From assembly GCA_013360675.1 (NCBI GenBank), contig JABWBB010000003.1, positions 1-64,000 on the forward strand: DNA of 64,000 bases, in the 5' to 3' direction. The notes below the pieces were generated by a model. That model made no database searches. It was not told the origin of the DNA and saw nothing but the letters and a program-made list of their open reading frames with translations. This DNA comes from Phycisphaerales bacterium. Lineage in GTDB: Bacteria > Planctomycetota > Phycisphaerae > Phycisphaerales > UBA1924. Position numbers and translations under genes: made by a program. This document shows, piece after piece, positions 32,231 to 41,192 of the stretch (positions are counted from its first letter, which is position 1; each line of letters opens with the position of its first letter).

Positions 32231-32932
32231 ATGCACCACATCGGGATCGTCGGCGTCAGCCCGGAGGGTGCGGCCCTCTTCTATCGCCAGCTCACACGCC
32301 ACGCCTCGAAGCTGCTGCCCGAGGGCGAGCAGCCTCGCGTCAGCGTGCACAACGAGCCCCTTCAGCAGTACATCGATGCCATCCGCTTTGACGACTGGCA
32401 CACGGTCGGACGACTGCTGCGCCGCTCGGCCGAGTTGCTGGCCCGATGCGGCGCCGAGTTCTGCCTGACCCCCGACAACGCCGTCCAGCATGCGATCCAG
32501 CTCGCCGAGGTCGGCAGCCCGATCCCCTGGCTGGCCACGACCGATCTGGTCGCCCAGGCCGTCGCCACCGATCAGCGGAAAATGGTTGGGCTGATCGGGA
32601 CCAAGCTGGTCATGCACTCTTCGACCTACCAGACTCCGCTCGGGCTGCGCGGCATCCGGGTCCTGCCCCCGGAGCCCGACGAGGCCGATGCCCTCGATCG
32701 CATCATTTACGGCGAGTTGATCTACGGGCACATCCGCCCCGACTCCAAGCGGTTCATGTTCGAGGTCCTGACACGACTCGCCGAGCGGGGCTGCGAGGGG
32801 ATCATCCTGGGATGCAGTGAGGCTCCGCTGGTGGTCACGGCCGAGAACTCCCCCCTGCCGGTCTATGACCCGGGCGAGATCCTGGCCCTGGCGGGGATCC
32901 GCCGGACGATCGCCCCGGCGGCGTCGGCCTGA
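32231..32932 (+). CDS. Asp/Glu racemase-like protein
   Basis: The 233-aa product has the Asp/Glu/hydantoin racemase fold: MHHIGIVGVSPEGAALFYRQL at the start, SVHNEPLQQYID, KMVGLIGTKLVMHSSTYQ, and the second catalytic cysteine in IILGCSEAPLV. The first catalytic position, normally CNT, reads TPDN at residues 80-83, so one of the two general acid/base cysteines is absent. A Thr/Cys pair is known in some amino acid racemases, so it may still be active, with altered specificity. GGGGAG precedes the ATG. It is monocistronic and divergent from hscB. Confidence 0.85.
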   Translation: MHHIGIVGVSPEGAALFYRQLTRHASKLLPEGEQPRVSVHNEPLQQYIDAIRFDDWHTVGRLLRRSAELLARCGAEFCLTPDNAVQHAIQLAEVGSPIPWLATTDLVAQAVATDQRKMVGLIGTKLVMHSSTYQTPLGLRGIRVLPPEPDEADALDRIIYGELIYGHIRPDSKRFMFEVLTRLAERGCEGIILGCSEAPLVVTAENSPLPVYDPGEILALAGIRRTIAPAASA

Positions 32933-33338: not shown

Positions 33339-36300
33339 ATGAGCAGATGGAACATGCGTTCTCTGTTCGCTCGGGCCTCTGTGAATCACACCCTTGCGCG
33401 CGACACGCGGACCGCCAGTGCGGGACTGCTGCGTGAGTTCGTGGGGCGTGCGCTCGGTCTGCGCGGCGGGCGGGTCGGCCCCGAGTGCCTCGGCTTCGAG
33501 CAACTCGAAGAACGCAAGCTGCTTGACGGCGACTTCAGCTCGGCCGTCGTCATCACGCTCGACGGCCAGAACCAGGGCTTCGCCGACGGCACCATCACGC
33601 CGACGGTCCCCAGCAGCAACAACGATTACTACCGCTTCCAGGCCCCCGCCAACGGGTTCGTCAGTGTGCTCGCCGACACCCGCTCGATCACCCCCGCCAG
33701 CACGCTCAACACGCGCGTGCAGGTCTTCAGCGAGAACGACCTCGTCAACCCCGTCGTCACGGGCACCAACAACGGCACGCTCACCACGGGCCTGGCGACC
33801 GACGGCTGGGCCGGGTTCATCGCCCAGAGCGGCGTGAACTACTTCGTCATCGTCAGCAACGACGGCTCGACGGGCAGCACCGCCCTGTCGTACCGCCTGC
33901 AGATCAACGCGCAGAATCTCGGGTTCGAGATGGCCACCGACACGGGCATCGCCCGCGAGCAGGGAAGCCCGCCCCCGGGTGTCCCCGTGCCGCCCCTGCG
34001 CCCGGTCTTGGGATCGCTGACCCGCCTCCAGCAGGACCACATCTACGCCTACACCGTGCCCAACCAGGCGAACTTCAACAGCTTGGCCTCGATCAACGCG
34101 ATCGTGACGCAGGCCAACCTCGCCATCCGTCTCGACTCGCGCGTCGAGGTCTACCGCGCCTCGGGCACCAGCGGGGCCGTCTCGCTCGTGGCCTCGGACA
34201 GCGATGCGGGACGCCTCAATGACGCCTTCACCACGCTCAAGACGACTCCCGGCGAGACCGTCTACATCCGCGTGCGTTCGGACGAGATCAACCCCGGACG
34301 TGAAGCCGTCGGCACCGGCTCGTACTTCCTCGTGCTCGACGGGTCCGCCGAGCAGCTCCCGCAGGCGATGAACCCCATCACACGCCGCGGCGGCGTGCCC
34401 GGCGGCGCGTTCGTTGGCTTCGGCGCACCCACCACGCCCCCCACGCCCAACGTTCCCAACCCCTCCTTCCAGACAGCGATGTTCCGCTTCATCGCGCAGG
34501 GCTCGGGCCTCACGATCATCACCGGCATCCCCACGGGCCTGGCACCTGTGGCCGACCCCGCGCTTCGCCTGTTCGATTCGAACGGCAACCTGCTCGCCTT
34601 CAACGACAACTTTGCCGGCGCCAGCGCGCAGATCGAGATGTCGCTCATCGGCGGGCGCGAGTATTACGTCATCCTCGACGGGTTTGAGATTAACAGCCAG
34701 GTCCAGTTCCAGCTCTGGATCGAGGCCAACCACACCTTCCAGCCCGCCGTCCCGCTCGACGACCACCTCTCCACCAACGATCTGGCTGGCCTCTCCGACA
34801 TCGCGCAACGCCGCCTGCTCGAGCAGGCCACGGGCATCGTCTTTAACGCCCCCTTCCCCACCCTCGACGGTAATCGGAACATCGTCCGCGATCGCGGGCT
34901 GCGCACCAACGGCACCGCCCAGGGGCGCATCCACAGCACCGGCGATACCGACATCTTCCAGTTCACCGCCCCGCGCGACATGCTGAGCGATTACGCAGGC
35001 GACAATGACGACCTGGGCACCTCGCTCTTCATCGGCGGGCGCTTCGACACCGCCGACCCCAACACCGTCTTCCCCGTCGGCTCGCGCAACCTCACCACGT
35101 GGGACGCGAACGACTACTGGTACACCGGCGCGCAGTTCTTCGACGCGGCCAACAACGTCACCTACGGCTTCAACGACAACCCCACCACCCCCGGCACCGA
35201 TGTCCCCGAGATCTACGCCCTGCTCAACTACGACCCGGGCACCCCCGCGTCCCCGCCCGCGGGCATGAACCGGCGCTGGCTCATCGTCGGCGGCGACTTT
35301 GATCTCATCGTCCCCAGCCCGCTGGGCCCGCAGACCTTCCGCAACCTCGCCGTCTGGTTCCAGAACTTCCAGACCGGCCAGTGGGGCTGGGGTTCGTTGG
35401 GCGATGTGGACGGCCCCGTCCACGCGCTCGCTTCCTATCTGCCCGATGCGCAGATGGAAGACCCCAACGACCCGTCGCAGCAGATCGATATCACACGCCC
35501 GCTCATCGGCGCAACACCCGTCCCCTACCTCGTGGTCGGCGGGGACTTCGGCGACGCCGGCGGTGCCGCGGCAAACAACATCGCCACCTTCGATGTCGTC
35601 AACGGCTGGCTGCCCATCGGCGGCGGTACCGACGGCCCGGTTCTGGCGTTGACCAACTACGACCCGCCCGATCCGAGCGATGAACGCCAGTGGACCGCGG
35701 CGGATGGAACAACCATCCCGCCGACGCCTGAACTGTTCTACGTCGCCAACACGCCCGACATTCCCAACTCGCTCATCATCGGCGGCAGTTTCACGAACGT
35801 CGACGGCCTCGCCGCGGGCAACATCGCGCTGTGGACCGGCGACGACGTCCGCAACTTGGCCTCGGGCCGCATCAATCCCATGCCCGGCGACCCGGGCACG
35901 CCACCCGGTGCCGGCTTCGGTGGCACCGAACCCACCAACTTCAACATCAACGGTCCCGTCCATGCGCTGACCGTCTTCGATCCTCCCGATCCTGACGGCA
36001 CCGGTCCCCTCGAAGATCCGGAACCCGTCCTGATCATCGGCGGCGATTTCACCAACGCCGGCGGCATCGCGGTCACCAGCCTCGTTGCCTGGGGCTTCAT
36101 TCAAGGTGAAACAGACGACACGGCTCAGGATTATGCGCCGTTCCTGGGCTGGGACGACCTGGGCTTCAACGCGGCGGGCGCTGTCATCCACGCCCTCACC
36201 ACCTTCAACCCGCCCGAACTCAACGGCGCACCCAACGTCGACTTCCGCTTCCTCATCGTCGGTGGCGAGTTCACCTTCGCCGGCCTCGACAACATCGTCG

Positions 36301-39300
36301 GCTCCGACGGCACCGCCTGGGGCTGGTTCTCGGATACGGCCGGCTTTGACGCCCCCGTCCGCTCGCTGACCACGCTCATCGATGAGCAGGAGCCGGGCAT
36401 CGCCACCAACCTGCGCCCCTCGGCTCAGATCCCCCAGGAAGTGCTCTACGTGGGCGGTGACTTCGCCCAGACCAACAACGGCCTGGCGGTGGTCAACGCC
36501 AGCCGCGTCGTCCAGTACTCCGCCATCCGCGGCGCGACCGCCGACGCCTTCGTCTGGAGTCGCATGGCGAACGGCGTTGACAACGCCGACCCGACCGCCG
36601 TGCCGCCGTCCAGCGTCTTTGCGTTGACCGCGTTCGACGACGGCAACCCCCTCGAATGGGACCGGCACGACCGCCCGGCGACACGCCTGGCGATCACGGT
36701 GAGCCCCTCCGAAGGATCGTTCATCAACTCGCGCGTCCGCGTCTTTGATTCGAACTTCCGCGTCGTGGCCCAGGGCGATCCGCAGGGCATGCTCTACGGC
36801 TTTGATCGCCCCGGCAGCGAGACGATCGCGCCGCCCTTCCCCGATCCTTCGGGCATGCTCGATCCCTCCCTCACCCCACCCCCCGGGGCCGGTGATCTGG
36901 CGGGCATCAAGCTCTGGGCCGGCGAGGTCTATTACATCGAAGTCTCGGGCACGGGCACGGGGCGCTACACCGTTTCGGTCACGGTCGACGCCAACCCGAT
37001 CGATCTCAACAACGACGGCATCCGCGACGATGTCAACGCGACCGTCCGCGAAGAGCCCGAGGAGGGCCGCTTCAACGCCGCCATCCGCATCAACACCACG
37101 CTGGCCAACGGCGACGGGACGAACTTCGTCGCGGCCAACACGCAGCCGCTGCACGGCAACGAGCTGCGCAACCAGAAGATCGCCCCCAAGACGCCCTCAC
37201 GCATCCAGCAGGTGCGTGACATCGGCGTGATCAGCGACATCGACGACACCGACCTGTGGACGTTCCGTGCCGAGTTCACCGGCACCGTCGAGATCCGTCT
37301 TTCCACCACCAATGTCGGCAACTCCTTCGCCGAGCAGATCACCGATCTGATCACCGGCGTGGCGGCCTTCCGTCCCGATACGAAGACCTATTCGAGCCAC
37401 CTCGACTCGGTGGTCCGCATCTTCCGCAACGACTTCGAGCAGATCGGCTACGGCGACACCAACACCGCGATCGTGGGCGACTTCCAGACCGTGCCCGTGG
37501 GCACGAATGCCGGCACGTTCATGCGGCGCGACCCGCGCGTGGTCTTCCACGTGGTGGCGGGCAACAACTATTTCATCCAGGTCGAGAGCGGGCAGAAGTG
37601 GAAGGTCGGCAAGCCGCAGCTCGCCGCCGACCGCACCGCCAACATCGATCGCGAGATCGACTGGCGCTACGCGACGGGCGTGTACCAGCTCTTCGTCAAC
37701 CAGATGCCCAACCCGATCACCGACATCGACAACGGGCAGGAAATCGTCGACGACCACCCGGACACGTCCGACCCCAACGCCCCGCTGGCCACGGTCATCC
37801 CCATCGGCGACGACCCGGCCGAGCCGAGCACCAACGGCATCGGCTCGATCCTGGGCAACATCAACAACACCCCCAATCACCTCGTCGACCTCGACGTCTT
37901 CATGTTCATCGCGCCCGCCAACGGCACGGGCACCATCACCGTCACCCCGCTGGGCAGCCCCGCGGGCCTGCGTCCGCAGCTGCAGATCTTCGACGAGACC
38001 GGCCAGCTGCTGGGCGACGGCCTGCCCCTGGGCAACAACGTCGTCGGCTTCACGCGGGCCTACACCGCGGGCCAGCGGATCTTCCTGCGTGTCTTTGGCG
38101 CGGGCAACACCGAGGGCGACTACCGCATCGACATCAACGGCCTGAACGTGGCCGACGATCAGCCCGAGGCGCACAAGCTGCCCTTCGCGGGCGATCTGCC
38201 CATCCGCGACTTCCTGGGCACGGGCACGATCACCGGGCGGCTGAACTCCGCCGGCGATACCGACATCTTCCGCTTCCGCACCGATCAGTTCCTGCTGATG
38301 ACCCTGACGGCCCGCGGGCTCGAAGCCACGATGGACCCGACGATTACGGTCTACGAGGTCAGCGAAGACCTCAGCGGCCGCCCGGTCATGATGCGTATCG
38401 GGCTCAATGACAACATCAACGCGGGCACGACCGATGCCCGCTCGACCTTCTCGGTCACGCCCAACCGCCGCCTCGATCCGCCGCTGGCCGATCCGGCGCG
38501 CGAGTACCCCTACTACTACGTCGTGGTCAGCGGGTCCAATCCGCAGACGCACTTTGGCAACTACGACCTCACCATCACCTTCCCCGCGACCGACGATCAC
38601 CCCGACGCCGACACCAACGCCGACGCCATCTACGACACGGGCGAGTTCTCCTTCGCCAGCGAGGTCCTGCTCGACACGACCACGGGCCTTGGCAACTCGT
38701 CGGGCAACCTCGAGCTCGCCACCGATACCGACCTCTTCTTCTTCACCGCCCCCGCGTCGGGCTCGGCGACCATCGTGCTCGCACGCGGCTCGATGGGCAC
38801 GCTCCGCGTCAAGCTCAGCGCGCTCGACGCCAGCGCCAATGTCCTGGCCACCAGCACCGCCGACGACACGCTGCTCGCGACCTCCACGAGCATCACCTTC
38901 ACCGTGACCCGCGGGACGCGCTACTACCTCGCCGTCGATCGAGGCACGCCCAACACCAACACCACCACCACCGGCACCTACACCTTGGCCGTCACCACGC
39001 CCCCGATCGACGACTACGCCAACATCGGCGAGTGGTCGCTGGCGGGCAACATCGCCATCAACCCCGCGACGGGCATCGGGCAGCTGGGCGGCAACGCCGG
39101 CGGCGACCCGAGCAACCCCGTCATCCGCCCCAACATCGACACCGACCTCTTCACCTTCCGCGTGCTCAACGCGGGCGATCAGACCATCACCGTCACGCCC
39201 TTCGCCACCGGGCTGGGCACGCTCGCCCCGCGCATCACGGTCTTCGCCTCAGCCGGCGGCGCCCTGATCGCCACGATCGACGCCTCGGCCCAGGGCCAGC

Positions 39301-41192
39301 CCGTCACCTTCACCATCACCGGCGCCAGCGTCAACGCCCAATACTGGATCCTCGTCGAGGCCCTGGGCAGCGGCGACGCCGAGGGCGAGTACAACATCAA
39401 CGTCACGGGCCCCGCGCCCATCACCCCGCCCCCGGTTGATGATCCGGCGGCGATCGACTTCAACGCCCCCACCGTCCTCACGCTCGATTCGCGCACGGGC
39501 GACGGGTCGCGCAATGATTCGATCAACGTCGTCAACGATCGCGATCTCTTCACCTTCACCACCACCGCCGCTGGCCGCACCTTCGTGCAGCTCGTCGCTC
39601 CCAATGGCTCATTGCTGCGGGCCTCGCTGCGGATCCTCTCCGCAGCGAACGAAGACCCCGGCTCAACGGTCGCCTTTGACGCCGACGGGCTCCCCGGGGC
39701 GATCGCCAACGTTTCGTTCACCGCGGCCGCGAACACCCAGTACTGGGTCATCGTCGATGGCTTGGGTGATTCAGTCGGGGCCTACACGATCCGCGTTAAC
39801 ACCCTGCCCGTCACGCAGCGCCTGTATTTCCCCGAGGGCTACACCAGCAACTCGATCCGCGAGTTTGTCTCAATCATCAACCCCAACCCGGTCGACGCGC
39901 AGTACTCGGTCATTCTCCGCTACGAGTTCGGCCAGCTCGAGACCGTCATCGCCAACGGCACAGTCCGCGCCAATGCCCGCGACGGCCTGACCATCAACGA
40001 TGCCACCTTCTATCGCTCGCCGGGCGTCGTCGCCGACGTCCCCTACTCGATCATCGTCGAGTCCAGCCTCCCGCTGGGCGCGACCCTGGCCCACTACGAC
40101 TTTGGCACCAGCATCGGCGACAGCTTCACCGAACGCCTCAGCAGCACCTGGCACTTCGCCCGCGTCGAGCGCGATCCGGGCAACATCCGCGACTTCGTCG
40201 TCTTCTATAACCCCAACAACTTCGGCGTCACTGTCACGCTGACCGCGTATCAGACGGGCGGCACCGCCGTCTCGCTGACCCGCGACTTTGGTGCGCTCCG
40301 CCGTGGCGGGTTCGCCATCAACGACATCGCCGAGTTCCCGATCGGGACCTTCAGCGTCGTCCTCACCGCCCGCGCGACCAACTCTTCCGACCAGGCCGCC
40401 TTCATGGGCGTGGTCGCGTCTCAGAGCCACTACGACACCGGTCGCGATGCCGGCTACGCCGCGATGGGCGATCCCGACGCTGGCGCCAAGCGCGGCGTGA
40501 TCACCAACCTCTCCAGCGGGACGGGCATCACATCGGAACTGGCCTTCTTCAACGCCACCGACACCCCCGCCACCATCAACCTCCAGGGCACGTTCGTCCG
40601 TTCGGGCCTGCCCCAGACCACCCGCGTCCTCTCCGTTGCACCACGCTCGCAGCTGGTCCTCAGCGGCACCACGCTGGGCATCGTCTCGGGCCAGCCCGTG
40701 GGCTTCACCTACACCTCCGATGTCGCCGTCTCCGCCCAGAGCTTCCAGATTCAGCTGGGCGATGGCGATGCCACGACCCCCGCGACCGAGGCCGCCCGTC
40801 GCTTCTACTTCGGCGACGCCTTCCTCGACACGACCAAGGCCGGCACCCTCTACTTCGAGACCCTCTACTTCCACAACCCCACGGCGGTCAACGCCAGCGT
40901 CGATATCCGCCTGGTCTTCCTCGATGGTGTCGAAGACCCCACCAACACCGACCCCCTCCGCAACCGCACGGTCACCATCAACATTCCCGCCCGCGGCTAC
41001 GCCGAGTTCAGGCTCCACGAGCGCCGCGAGATCCTCGATCGTCCCACCACTCTCAACTGGTTCGCGGTCGATACCTCATCCAACGTCCCCGTCATCGCCA
41101 CGATGACCCACTACGACCTCGTGCTGGGCGGCGGCTGGGCAACCAGCGGCGTGGCCTTCGGGTTCGAGACGCCCCTCCCGCTCATCCCCTGA
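33339..41192 (+). CDS. Giant extracellular multi-domain beta protein
   Basis: The 2617-aa product has no hydrophobic signal peptide but carries the planctomycete N-terminal motif FEQLEERKLL (53-62), associated with exported proteins. Most of the chain is a series of PPC-like beta domains, recognised by D-T-D-x-F-x-F strands (TDIFQFTAP, DTDLWTF, DLDVFMFIAP, TDIFRFR, TDLFFFTAP, TDLFTF, DRDLFTF). Seven propeller-like repeats (about aa 560-1105), each with an ALTxF strand and an IGGDF strand, interrupt one of these domains. The last 460 residues form four repeats with F-x-x-NP strands and HYD segments. AAGGAG supports the ATG at 33339. It is Asp/Asn/Gly/Thr-rich and nearly cysteine-free. It is likely a surface or matrix protein; ligand and function are unknown. 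Confidence 0.85.
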   Translation: MSRWNMRSLFARASVNHTLARDTRTASAGLLREFVGRALGLRGGRVGPECLGFEQLEERKLLDGDFSSAVVITLDGQNQGFADGTITPTVPSSNNDYYRFQAPANGFVSVLADTRSITPASTLNTRVQVFSENDLVNPVVTGTNNGTLTTGLATDGWAGFIAQSGVNYFVIVSNDGSTGSTALSYRLQINAQNLGFEMATDTGIAREQGSPPPGVPVPPLRPVLGSLTRLQQDHIYAYTVPNQANFNSLASINAIVTQANLAIRLDSRVEVYRASGTSGAVSLVASDSDAGRLNDAFTTLKTTPGETVYIRVRSDEINPGREAVGTGSYFLVLDGSAEQLPQAMNPITRRGGVPGGAFVGFGAPTTPPTPNVPNPSFQTAMFRFIAQGSGLTIITGIPTGLAPVADPALRLFDSNGNLLAFNDNFAGASAQIEMSLIGGREYYVILDGFEINSQVQFQLWIEANHTFQPAVPLDDHLSTNDLAGLSDIAQRRLLEQATGIVFNAPFPTLDGNRNIVRDRGLRTNGTAQGRIHSTGDTDIFQFTAPRDMLSDYAGDNDDLGTSLFIGGRFDTADPNTVFPVGSRNLTTWDANDYWYTGAQFFDAANNVTYGFNDNPTTPGTDVPEIYALLNYDPGTPASPPAGMNRRWLIVGGDFDLIVPSPLGPQTFRNLAVWFQNFQTGQWGWGSLGDVDGPVHALASYLPDAQMEDPNDPSQQIDITRPLIGATPVPYLVVGGDFGDAGGAAANNIATFDVVNGWLPIGGGTDGPVLALTNYDPPDPSDERQWTAADGTTIPPTPELFYVANTPDIPNSLIIGGSFTNVDGLAAGNIALWTGDDVRNLASGRINPMPGDPGTPPGAGFGGTEPTNFNINGPVHALTVFDPPDPDGTGPLEDPEPVLIIGGDFTNAGGIAVTSLVAWGFIQGETDDTAQDYAPFLGWDDLGFNAAGAVIHALTTFNPPELNGAPNVDFRFLIVGGEFTFAGLDNIVGSDGTAWGWFSDTAGFDAPVRSLTTLIDEQEPGIATNLRPSAQIPQEVLYVGGDFAQTNNGLAVVNASRVVQYSAIRGATADAFVWSRMANGVDNADPTAVPPSSVFALTAFDDGNPLEWDRHDRPATRLAITVSPSEGSFINSRVRVFDSNFRVVAQGDPQGMLYGFDRPGSETIAPPFPDPSGMLDPSLTPPPGAGDLAGIKLWAGEVYYIEVSGTGTGRYTVSVTVDANPIDLNNDGIRDDVNATVREEPEEGRFNAAIRINTTLANGDGTNFVAANTQPLHGNELRNQKIAPKTPSRIQQVRDIGVISDIDDTDLWTFRAEFTGTVEIRLSTTNVGNSFAEQITDLITGVAAFRPDTKTYSSHLDSVVRIFRNDFEQIGYGDTNTAIVGDFQTVPVGTNAGTFMRRDPRVVFHVVAGNNYFIQVESGQKWKVGKPQLAADRTANIDREIDWRYATGVYQLFVNQMPNPITDIDNGQEIVDDHPDTSDPNAPLATVIPIGDDPAEPSTNGIGSILGNINNTPNHLVDLDVFMFIAPANGTGTITVTPLGSPAGLRPQLQIFDETGQLLGDGLPLGNNVVGFTRAYTAGQRIFLRVFGAGNTEGDYRIDINGLNVADDQPEAHKLPFAGDLPIRDFLGTGTITGRLNSAGDTDIFRFRTDQFLLMTLTARGLEATMDPTITVYEVSEDLSGRPVMMRIGLNDNINAGTTDARSTFSVTPNRRLDPPLADPAREYPYYYVVVSGSNPQTHFGNYDLTITFPATDDHPDADTNADAIYDTGEFSFASEVLLDTTTGLGNSSGNLELATDTDLFFFTAPASGSATIVLARGSMGTLRVKLSALDASANVLATSTADDTLLATSTSITFTVTRGTRYYLAVDRGTPNTNTTTTGTYTLAVTTPPIDDYANIGEWSLAGNIAINPATGIGQLGGNAGGDPSNPVIRPNIDTDLFTFRVLNAGDQTITVTPFATGLGTLAPRITVFASAGGALIATIDASAQGQPVTFTITGASVNAQYWILVEALGSGDAEGEYNINVTGPAPITPPPVDDPAAIDFNAPTVLTLDSRTGDGSRNDSINVVNDRDLFTFTTTAAGRTFVQLVAPNGSLLRASLRILSAANEDPGSTVAFDADGLPGAIANVSFTAAANTQYWVIVDGLGDSVGAYTIRVNTLPVTQRLYFPEGYTSNSIREFVSIINPNPVDAQYSVILRYEFGQLETVIANGTVRANARDGLTINDATFYRSPGVVADVPYSIIVESSLPLGATLAHYDFGTSIGDSFTERLSSTWHFARVERDPGNIRDFVVFYNPNNFGVTVTLTAYQTGGTAVSLTRDFGALRRGGFAINDIAEFPIGTFSVVLTARATNSSDQAAFMGVVASQSHYDTGRDAGYAAMGDPDAGAKRGVITNLSSGTGITSELAFFNATDTPATINLQGTFVRSGLPQTTRVLSVAPRSQLVLSGTTLGIVSGQPVGFTYTSDVAVSAQSFQIQLGDGDATTPATEAARRFYFGDAFLDTTKAGTLYFETLYFHNPTAVNASVDIRLVFLDGVEDPTNTDPLRNRTVTINIPARGYAEFRLHERREILDRPTTLNWFAVDTSSNVPVIATMTHYDLVLGGGWATSGVAFGFETPLPLIP

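Follow-up and report, generated by a model that had tools for sequence, protein, structure and literature searches.

The fourth of about ten PPC-type domains in a giant Phycisphaerales protein very likely holds a whole seven-bladed β-propeller in the loop that links core strands 2 and 3, a single early insertion followed by losses being the likeliest history. The protein is encoded in the window, i.e. the whole 64,000-nucleotide stretch of DNA that was analysed, and its features are collected in Table 1. Orthologues that carry the propeller are termed filled and those that have a short loop in its place are termed empty.

Gene and domain organization

The orthologues of the 2617-aa protein in related genomes comprise 2034-3022 aa, each in one open frame. 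Many of them retain the pattern LE.R.LL near the N-terminus. The corresponding LEERKLL of the giant protein has no NCBIfam match but resembles LEPR-XLL, an N-terminal motif of planctomycete secreted proteins. The giant protein is probably secreted or surface-exposed.

By profile, nine further domains of the same protein resemble the split domain (hhalign, E 4e-8 to 2e-18), which is thus the fourth of about ten PPC-type domains. For the sister domain at aa 1796-1867, Pfam PPC yields E 0.0019 and 19.4 bits, below the cut-off of 25.9; the profile match of this sister to the split domain has E 4e-16. Pfam does not recognise the C-terminal module of ~450 aa, a candidate for anchoring or sorting. 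It also occurs in S8-type peptidases that measure 1800-1900 aa and bear LEPR-like motifs, and in other proteins of the same genomes (L092-L105). No peptidase domain is seen in the giant protein. An aspartate-racemase-like gene (window 32231-32932) lies directly upstream of the giant gene, as it does in nearly all relatives, filled or empty.

Table 1 Features of the giant protein gene, with positions in the window.
Feature	Position	Strand	Remarks and basis
Giant protein gene	33339-41192	+	2617 aa, one uninterrupted frame, ATG start at 33339
LEERKLL motif	33504-33524	+	Read from the sequence
Three PPC-like domains ahead of the split one	33528-34736	+	aa 64-466; hhalign to split domain E 2e-15, 4e-8, 1e-10
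N-terminal half of split PPC-type domain	34758-34973	+	aa 474-545; model strands E57-66, E72-78; homologous to empty orthologues
Left loop stump RDMLSDYAGDND	34974-35009	+	Consensus VDMLGxYxGDND, with or without insert; 65-orthologue alignment
Propeller repeat 1	35025-35279	+	Sequence, shuffle test, blade HMM, model
Propeller repeat 2	35280-35528	+	Sequence, shuffle test, blade HMM, model
Propeller repeat 3	35529-35771	+	Sequence, shuffle test, blade HMM, model
Propeller repeat 4	35772-36029	+	Sequence, shuffle test, blade HMM, model
Propeller repeat 5	36030-36251	+	Sequence, shuffle test, blade HMM, model
Propeller repeat 6	36252-36443	+	Sequence, shuffle test, blade HMM, model
Propeller repeat 7	36444-36638	+	Sequence, blade HMM, model; pairwise similarity to other six weak
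Right loop stump PLEWDRHDRPAT	36648-36683	+	W...YRPST in empty orthologues; 65-orthologue alignment
C-terminal half of split PPC-type domain	36684-36989	+	aa 1116-1217; model strands and homology to empty orthologues
Six more PPC-like domains	37026-39833	+	aa 1230-2165; hhalign to split domain E 2e-12 to 2e-18
C-terminal module, ~450 aa	39834-41189	+	In common with S8-type peptidases of same genomes, BLASTP E to 5e-47

Propeller repeats and ring closure

A first-pass annotation of the window had proposed seven repeats, each with one hhhGGxF strand and one ALT-type strand. All fourteen strands are present in frame, within one ORF and in the order given, the hhhGGxF strands at aa 563-1042 and the ALT-type strands at aa 624-1099. 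The repeats, which span aa 563-1100, are degenerate and of unequal length (64-86 aa). When the repeats were compared with one another, 12 of the 21 blade pairs reached z ≥ 4 relative to shuffled sequences in one or both directions, a similarity beyond chance. Kinship is strongest among repeats 2 to 6, with a top score of z 14.5 for blades 4 and 5, and blade 7 is the most divergent in this test.

A blade HMM detects seven blades in nearly every one of the 44 orthologous inserts, the mean identity between which is 35%. Three members of one genus show six blades by HMM, and the remaining undetected stretch is long enough to accommodate a seventh. Searches of the window propeller against Pfam, NCBIfam and PDB sequences returned nothing above threshold. 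Pfam DUF5122 (PF17164), with a curated cut-off of 27 bits, scores 9.7 bits on the window repeats and 27.1 bits on orthologue L052. The insert of L061 (G089) has five blades, exactly two whole blades fewer than that of its close relative L029 (G008), and the break falls at a repeated GTNGPVYAL motif; the genome is 60% complete, and the two blades may either have been truly deleted or have collapsed during assembly.

The AlphaFold2 model m16f2982d4a06 covers aa 466-1232 of the window protein (767 residues) and was calculated from an alignment of 42 sequences, with a mean pLDDT of 88.9 and pTM of 0.89. Foldseek alone found no usable whole-model match for these 767 residues; VIA-align resolved the fold. 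Among solved structures, the model aligns best with the designed seven-bladed propeller 7bid (Z 21.9, rmsd 3.6); the alignment covers 282 of the 286 residues of 7bid, corresponding to model residues 96-636. This coverage by a confident model indicates that the ring closes, as the first-pass annotation had supposed, and the repeats are predicted to form a closed seven-bladed β-propeller. The degeneracy and unequal length of the repeats, together with the five blades in one genome, could point to an open β array or an incomplete propeller, but the confident model, the full-length alignment to seven-bladed propellers and the conservation of the blade number among the inserts make this very improbable.

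Filled and empty orthologues

Of 163 genomes in the window's own family, 79 encode relatives of the C-terminal 578 residues, a few of these being paralogues only; a sample of 301 genomes of the order yielded none in other families. Within this sample, the architecture appears to be restricted to one family of Phycisphaerales. The named relatives are Phycisphaerales and other planctomycete records, all from metagenome-assembled or uncultured genomes. One record, QWIH01000010.1 (L125), is titled Leptolyngbya sp. PLA1 and encodes the Phycisphaerales protein; the title looks wrong.

Sixty-five near-complete orthologues were aligned, and both states were found at the same site. Between the DTD.FQF.AP strand and the R(L/V).I.V strand, 331-959 aa are present in 44 proteins and 27-46 aa in the other 21. 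The stumps of the loop are alike in both states: the left one reads VDMLGxYxGxxD and the right one W....RP(A/S)(T/S)R. The neighbourhood is also the same, comprising an aspartate-racemase gene upstream of nearly all filled and empty orthologues and, often, rhodanese and DsbD-like genes. Shared stumps and shared neighbours identify these proteins as true empty and filled versions of one locus. Assembly error was considered as a source of the empty loops and rejected, the empty state occurring in 21 genomes on contigs of up to 3.8 Mb.

The split PPC-type domain

The host domain begins near aa 474, upstream of the interval given in the first-pass annotation. Its N-terminal half contains core strands at aa 522-531 (34902-34931) and aa 537-543. 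DTDIFQFTAP (34944-34973), previously assigned as the first strand of a PPC domain, is a PPC strand as assigned, but the second core strand, the first being aa 522-531. Likewise, the propeller does reside in a PPC-domain loop, but between core strands 2 and 3 rather than after strand 1. Beyond the propeller, the sequences RLAITVSP (36684-36707), SRVRVFDSN (36729-36755) and the stretch that begins EVYYIEVSG (36924-36980) lie in the half for which the model has strands E653-658, E666-671, E706-709, E732-739 and E743-752.

The split domain gave no match above threshold in Pfam, NCBIfam or PDB sequence searches, and no viral relative of it was found. Profile comparison of the joined flanks of the filled proteins with the empty orthologues yielded a probability of 100 and E 5e-60 over 184 columns, and the two halves in the window have a sequence profile in common with the PPC-type domain of the empty orthologue. 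The empty orthologue L033, folded from its own alignment with moderate confidence (pLDDT 62, pTM 0.63), has strands E70-80, E86-91, E127-134, E142-147, E153-157, E207-210, E215-221 and E226-236 in the same order as the inserted model; the loop 92-126 is of low confidence. The top structural matches of the L033 model are the PPC domains of ColG, ColH, Tk-SP and a B. anthracis collagenase (Z 10.3-11.3), and the empty domain thus has a PPC fold. The proposal that a whole propeller occupies one loop of another domain is borne out by this fold together with the match of the joined flanks.

The natural empty orthologues, in which a short loop joins the two halves within one domain, as earlier surmised for the flanking strands, suggest that the halves of the filled protein pair within one sheet or sandwich. 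That the halves are instead separate domains strung like beads on either side of the propeller would fit the failure of Pfam to recognise either of them, but is scarcely credible given the 21 orthologues that join them in a single sandwich and the identical strand order of the empty and inserted models.

Inheritance of the insert

In the flank tree, from which the insert columns were removed, at least four changes of state occur, and the starred branches force all four. A single clade of inserted proteins is rejected by the AU test (p 3e-104). Since a sample of 301 genomes of the order contained no outgroup in other families, the tree of the C-terminal module was rooted on the S8-type paralogues, a distant paralogous module. 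The first split in that tree sets one inserted clade against all other proteins, and the tree requires six changes. The two trees disagree in places.

The inserts themselves retain a record of common descent in their blade order. Blade 1 is matched best by blade 1 of another clade in 47 of 49 comparisons, and blade 7 by blade 7 in 48 of 49, and between clades the unrotated blade register is always top-scoring. Distances between inserts also follow those between flanks (r 0.87; 0 of 999 permutations). The conserved blade order and the co-evolution of insert and host favour one insertion with at least four losses. One insertion followed by several in-frame losses is the simplest and most likely reading, with a rooting that rests on a distant paralogous module. 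The propeller would have entered once, early in this bacterial family, and would then have been inherited vertically; at least four in-frame losses would have left the loop stumps behind.

The trees could also be read with the empty form as ancestral and the propeller gained repeatedly at the same loop, or passed between lineages as orthologous genes recombined. Empty proteins lie in scattered parts of the tree, with at least four changes (six on the C-terminal tree), the AU test rejects a single inserted clade, and donor propellers are abundant. Nevertheless, the inserts have their register and blade-specific features in common, those of blades 1 and 7 above all, and they co-vary with the flanks, which diverse independent donors should not yield. 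Repeated gain or such spread is unlikely.

Putative function

The architecture suggests a putative surface or secreted stalk with a binding head. The PPC domains would make up the stalk, which the N- and C-terminal modules would hold in place, and the propeller would branch off from it, where present, to bind an extracellular ligand. In collagenases, PPC domains are collagen-binding (PMC6168687). An optional ligand-binding head on a PPC stalk is the most likely function. A less likely possibility is that, within the architecture described, the propeller serves as structural ballast and has no ligand of its own, its loss being neutral. The propeller was lost or is missing several times, and no conserved ligand site could be shown, as ballast would predict; against this, the number of seven blades and their register are kept at ~35% identity, which argues for selection on the fold at least.

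Relatives of the propeller

A profile of the window blades finds stand-alone Phycisphaerales GGxF propellers with E 1e-7 to 1e-10, and stand-alone proteins built on the same repeat abound across the order. The window's own genome encodes one such relative, L118, a protein of 518 aa with seven repeats discernible by eye and a dockerin-like tail. The stand-alone propellers (ALYAGGxFTTAGG repeats; DUF5122/kelch-like in L118) have the same GGxF, IAxWDG and WxxLG strands and the ALTxWDPDGxGP motif. In contrast to the 64-86-aa repeats of the insert, their blades measure ~50 aa and their array runs from the WxxLG strand; the insert is circularly permuted relative to them, starting with GGxF and ending with ALT, and is without a dockerin.

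As read from the sequences, both ends of the insert fall in the DPDG-type ALT-to-GGxF loop, the normal joint between repeats; in this position, as model and alignment show, the ring closes and the sandwich is left undisturbed. Splicing at the ALT-to-GGxF joint is a simple way to open the ring and tether it in a loop. The propeller belongs to a repeat family that in Phycisphaerales often occurs as secreted, stand-alone proteins. Two large reading frames that contain these repeats were considered as further insertions and rejected, being stand-alone propeller proteins. L157 (G018) and L036 (G026), of 1400-1800 aa, also stand alone; in each, some ten or more GGxF repeats are followed by other repeats and FG-GAP-like repeats, so that two propeller types are combined in one protein.

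A probable second propeller nested in the first

In the filled orthologue L052 (genome G147; L052:2236-5733), blades 3 and 4 are separated by an additional 404 aa, which again lie in the ALT-to-GGxF loop. This inner insertion is matched by Pfam FG-GAP_3 in five stretches (E 1.6e-16), and by eye it comprises six full repeats plus one that is split between both ends, as in a velcro-closed ring. The same inner insertion is present in L156 (genome G148, same genus), which argues against an assembly slip. The repeat pattern suggests that the inner insertion is a second, FG-GAP-type propeller, nested in a loop of the first in one genus. We would suggest only tentatively, and on balance doubt, that the PPC strand 2/3 loop and the propeller ALT-to-GGxF loop are recurrent landing sites for whole propellers, in a three-level nest with cleanly removable guests.

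Comparison with known systems

Propellers spliced into other domains and domains inserted into propellers are both known in principle. The open-access papers searched described neither a propeller within a PPC domain nor one propeller nested in another. In prolyl oligopeptidase a propeller is inserted in the hydrolase domain, and for the integrin alpha-I domain the propeller is the host. The giant protein resembles prolyl oligopeptidase in that a whole propeller is spliced into another domain with both propeller ends together. However, the host there is an alpha/beta-hydrolase enzyme, whereas here it is a small sandwich without known activity and the insert is optional. Unlike the integrin propeller, which hosts, that of the giant protein is a guest, although in one genus it also serves as a host. 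DPP IV is a two-domain relative of prolyl oligopeptidase (PMC5807507), and the integrin alpha-I domain is inserted into a surface protein in only some related proteins (PMC12422189).

The PPC domain (PF04151) of the clostridial collagenases ColG and ColH, which is collagen-binding (PMC6168687), has the same fold as the domain of the empty orthologue. ColG and ColH resemble the giant protein, which is probably secreted, in their tandem PPC copies. The giant protein differs in the peptidase domain, of which none is seen, in the long strand 2/3 loop that bears the propeller, and in a sequence below the Pfam cut-off.

Insertions of whole domains usually come to light only once they have happened, and the value of this locus lies in its matched empty and filled orthologues. 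Dozens of related genomes contain it in one state or the other, the stumps are conserved, the neighbours are the same, and the guest has stand-alone relatives. The two states provide a natural series for how a large closed domain enters or leaves a loop without destroying the host fold, and illustrate one way for giant planctomycete surface proteins to diversify. Across the series, the loop appears to tolerate from ~30 to ~960 residues.
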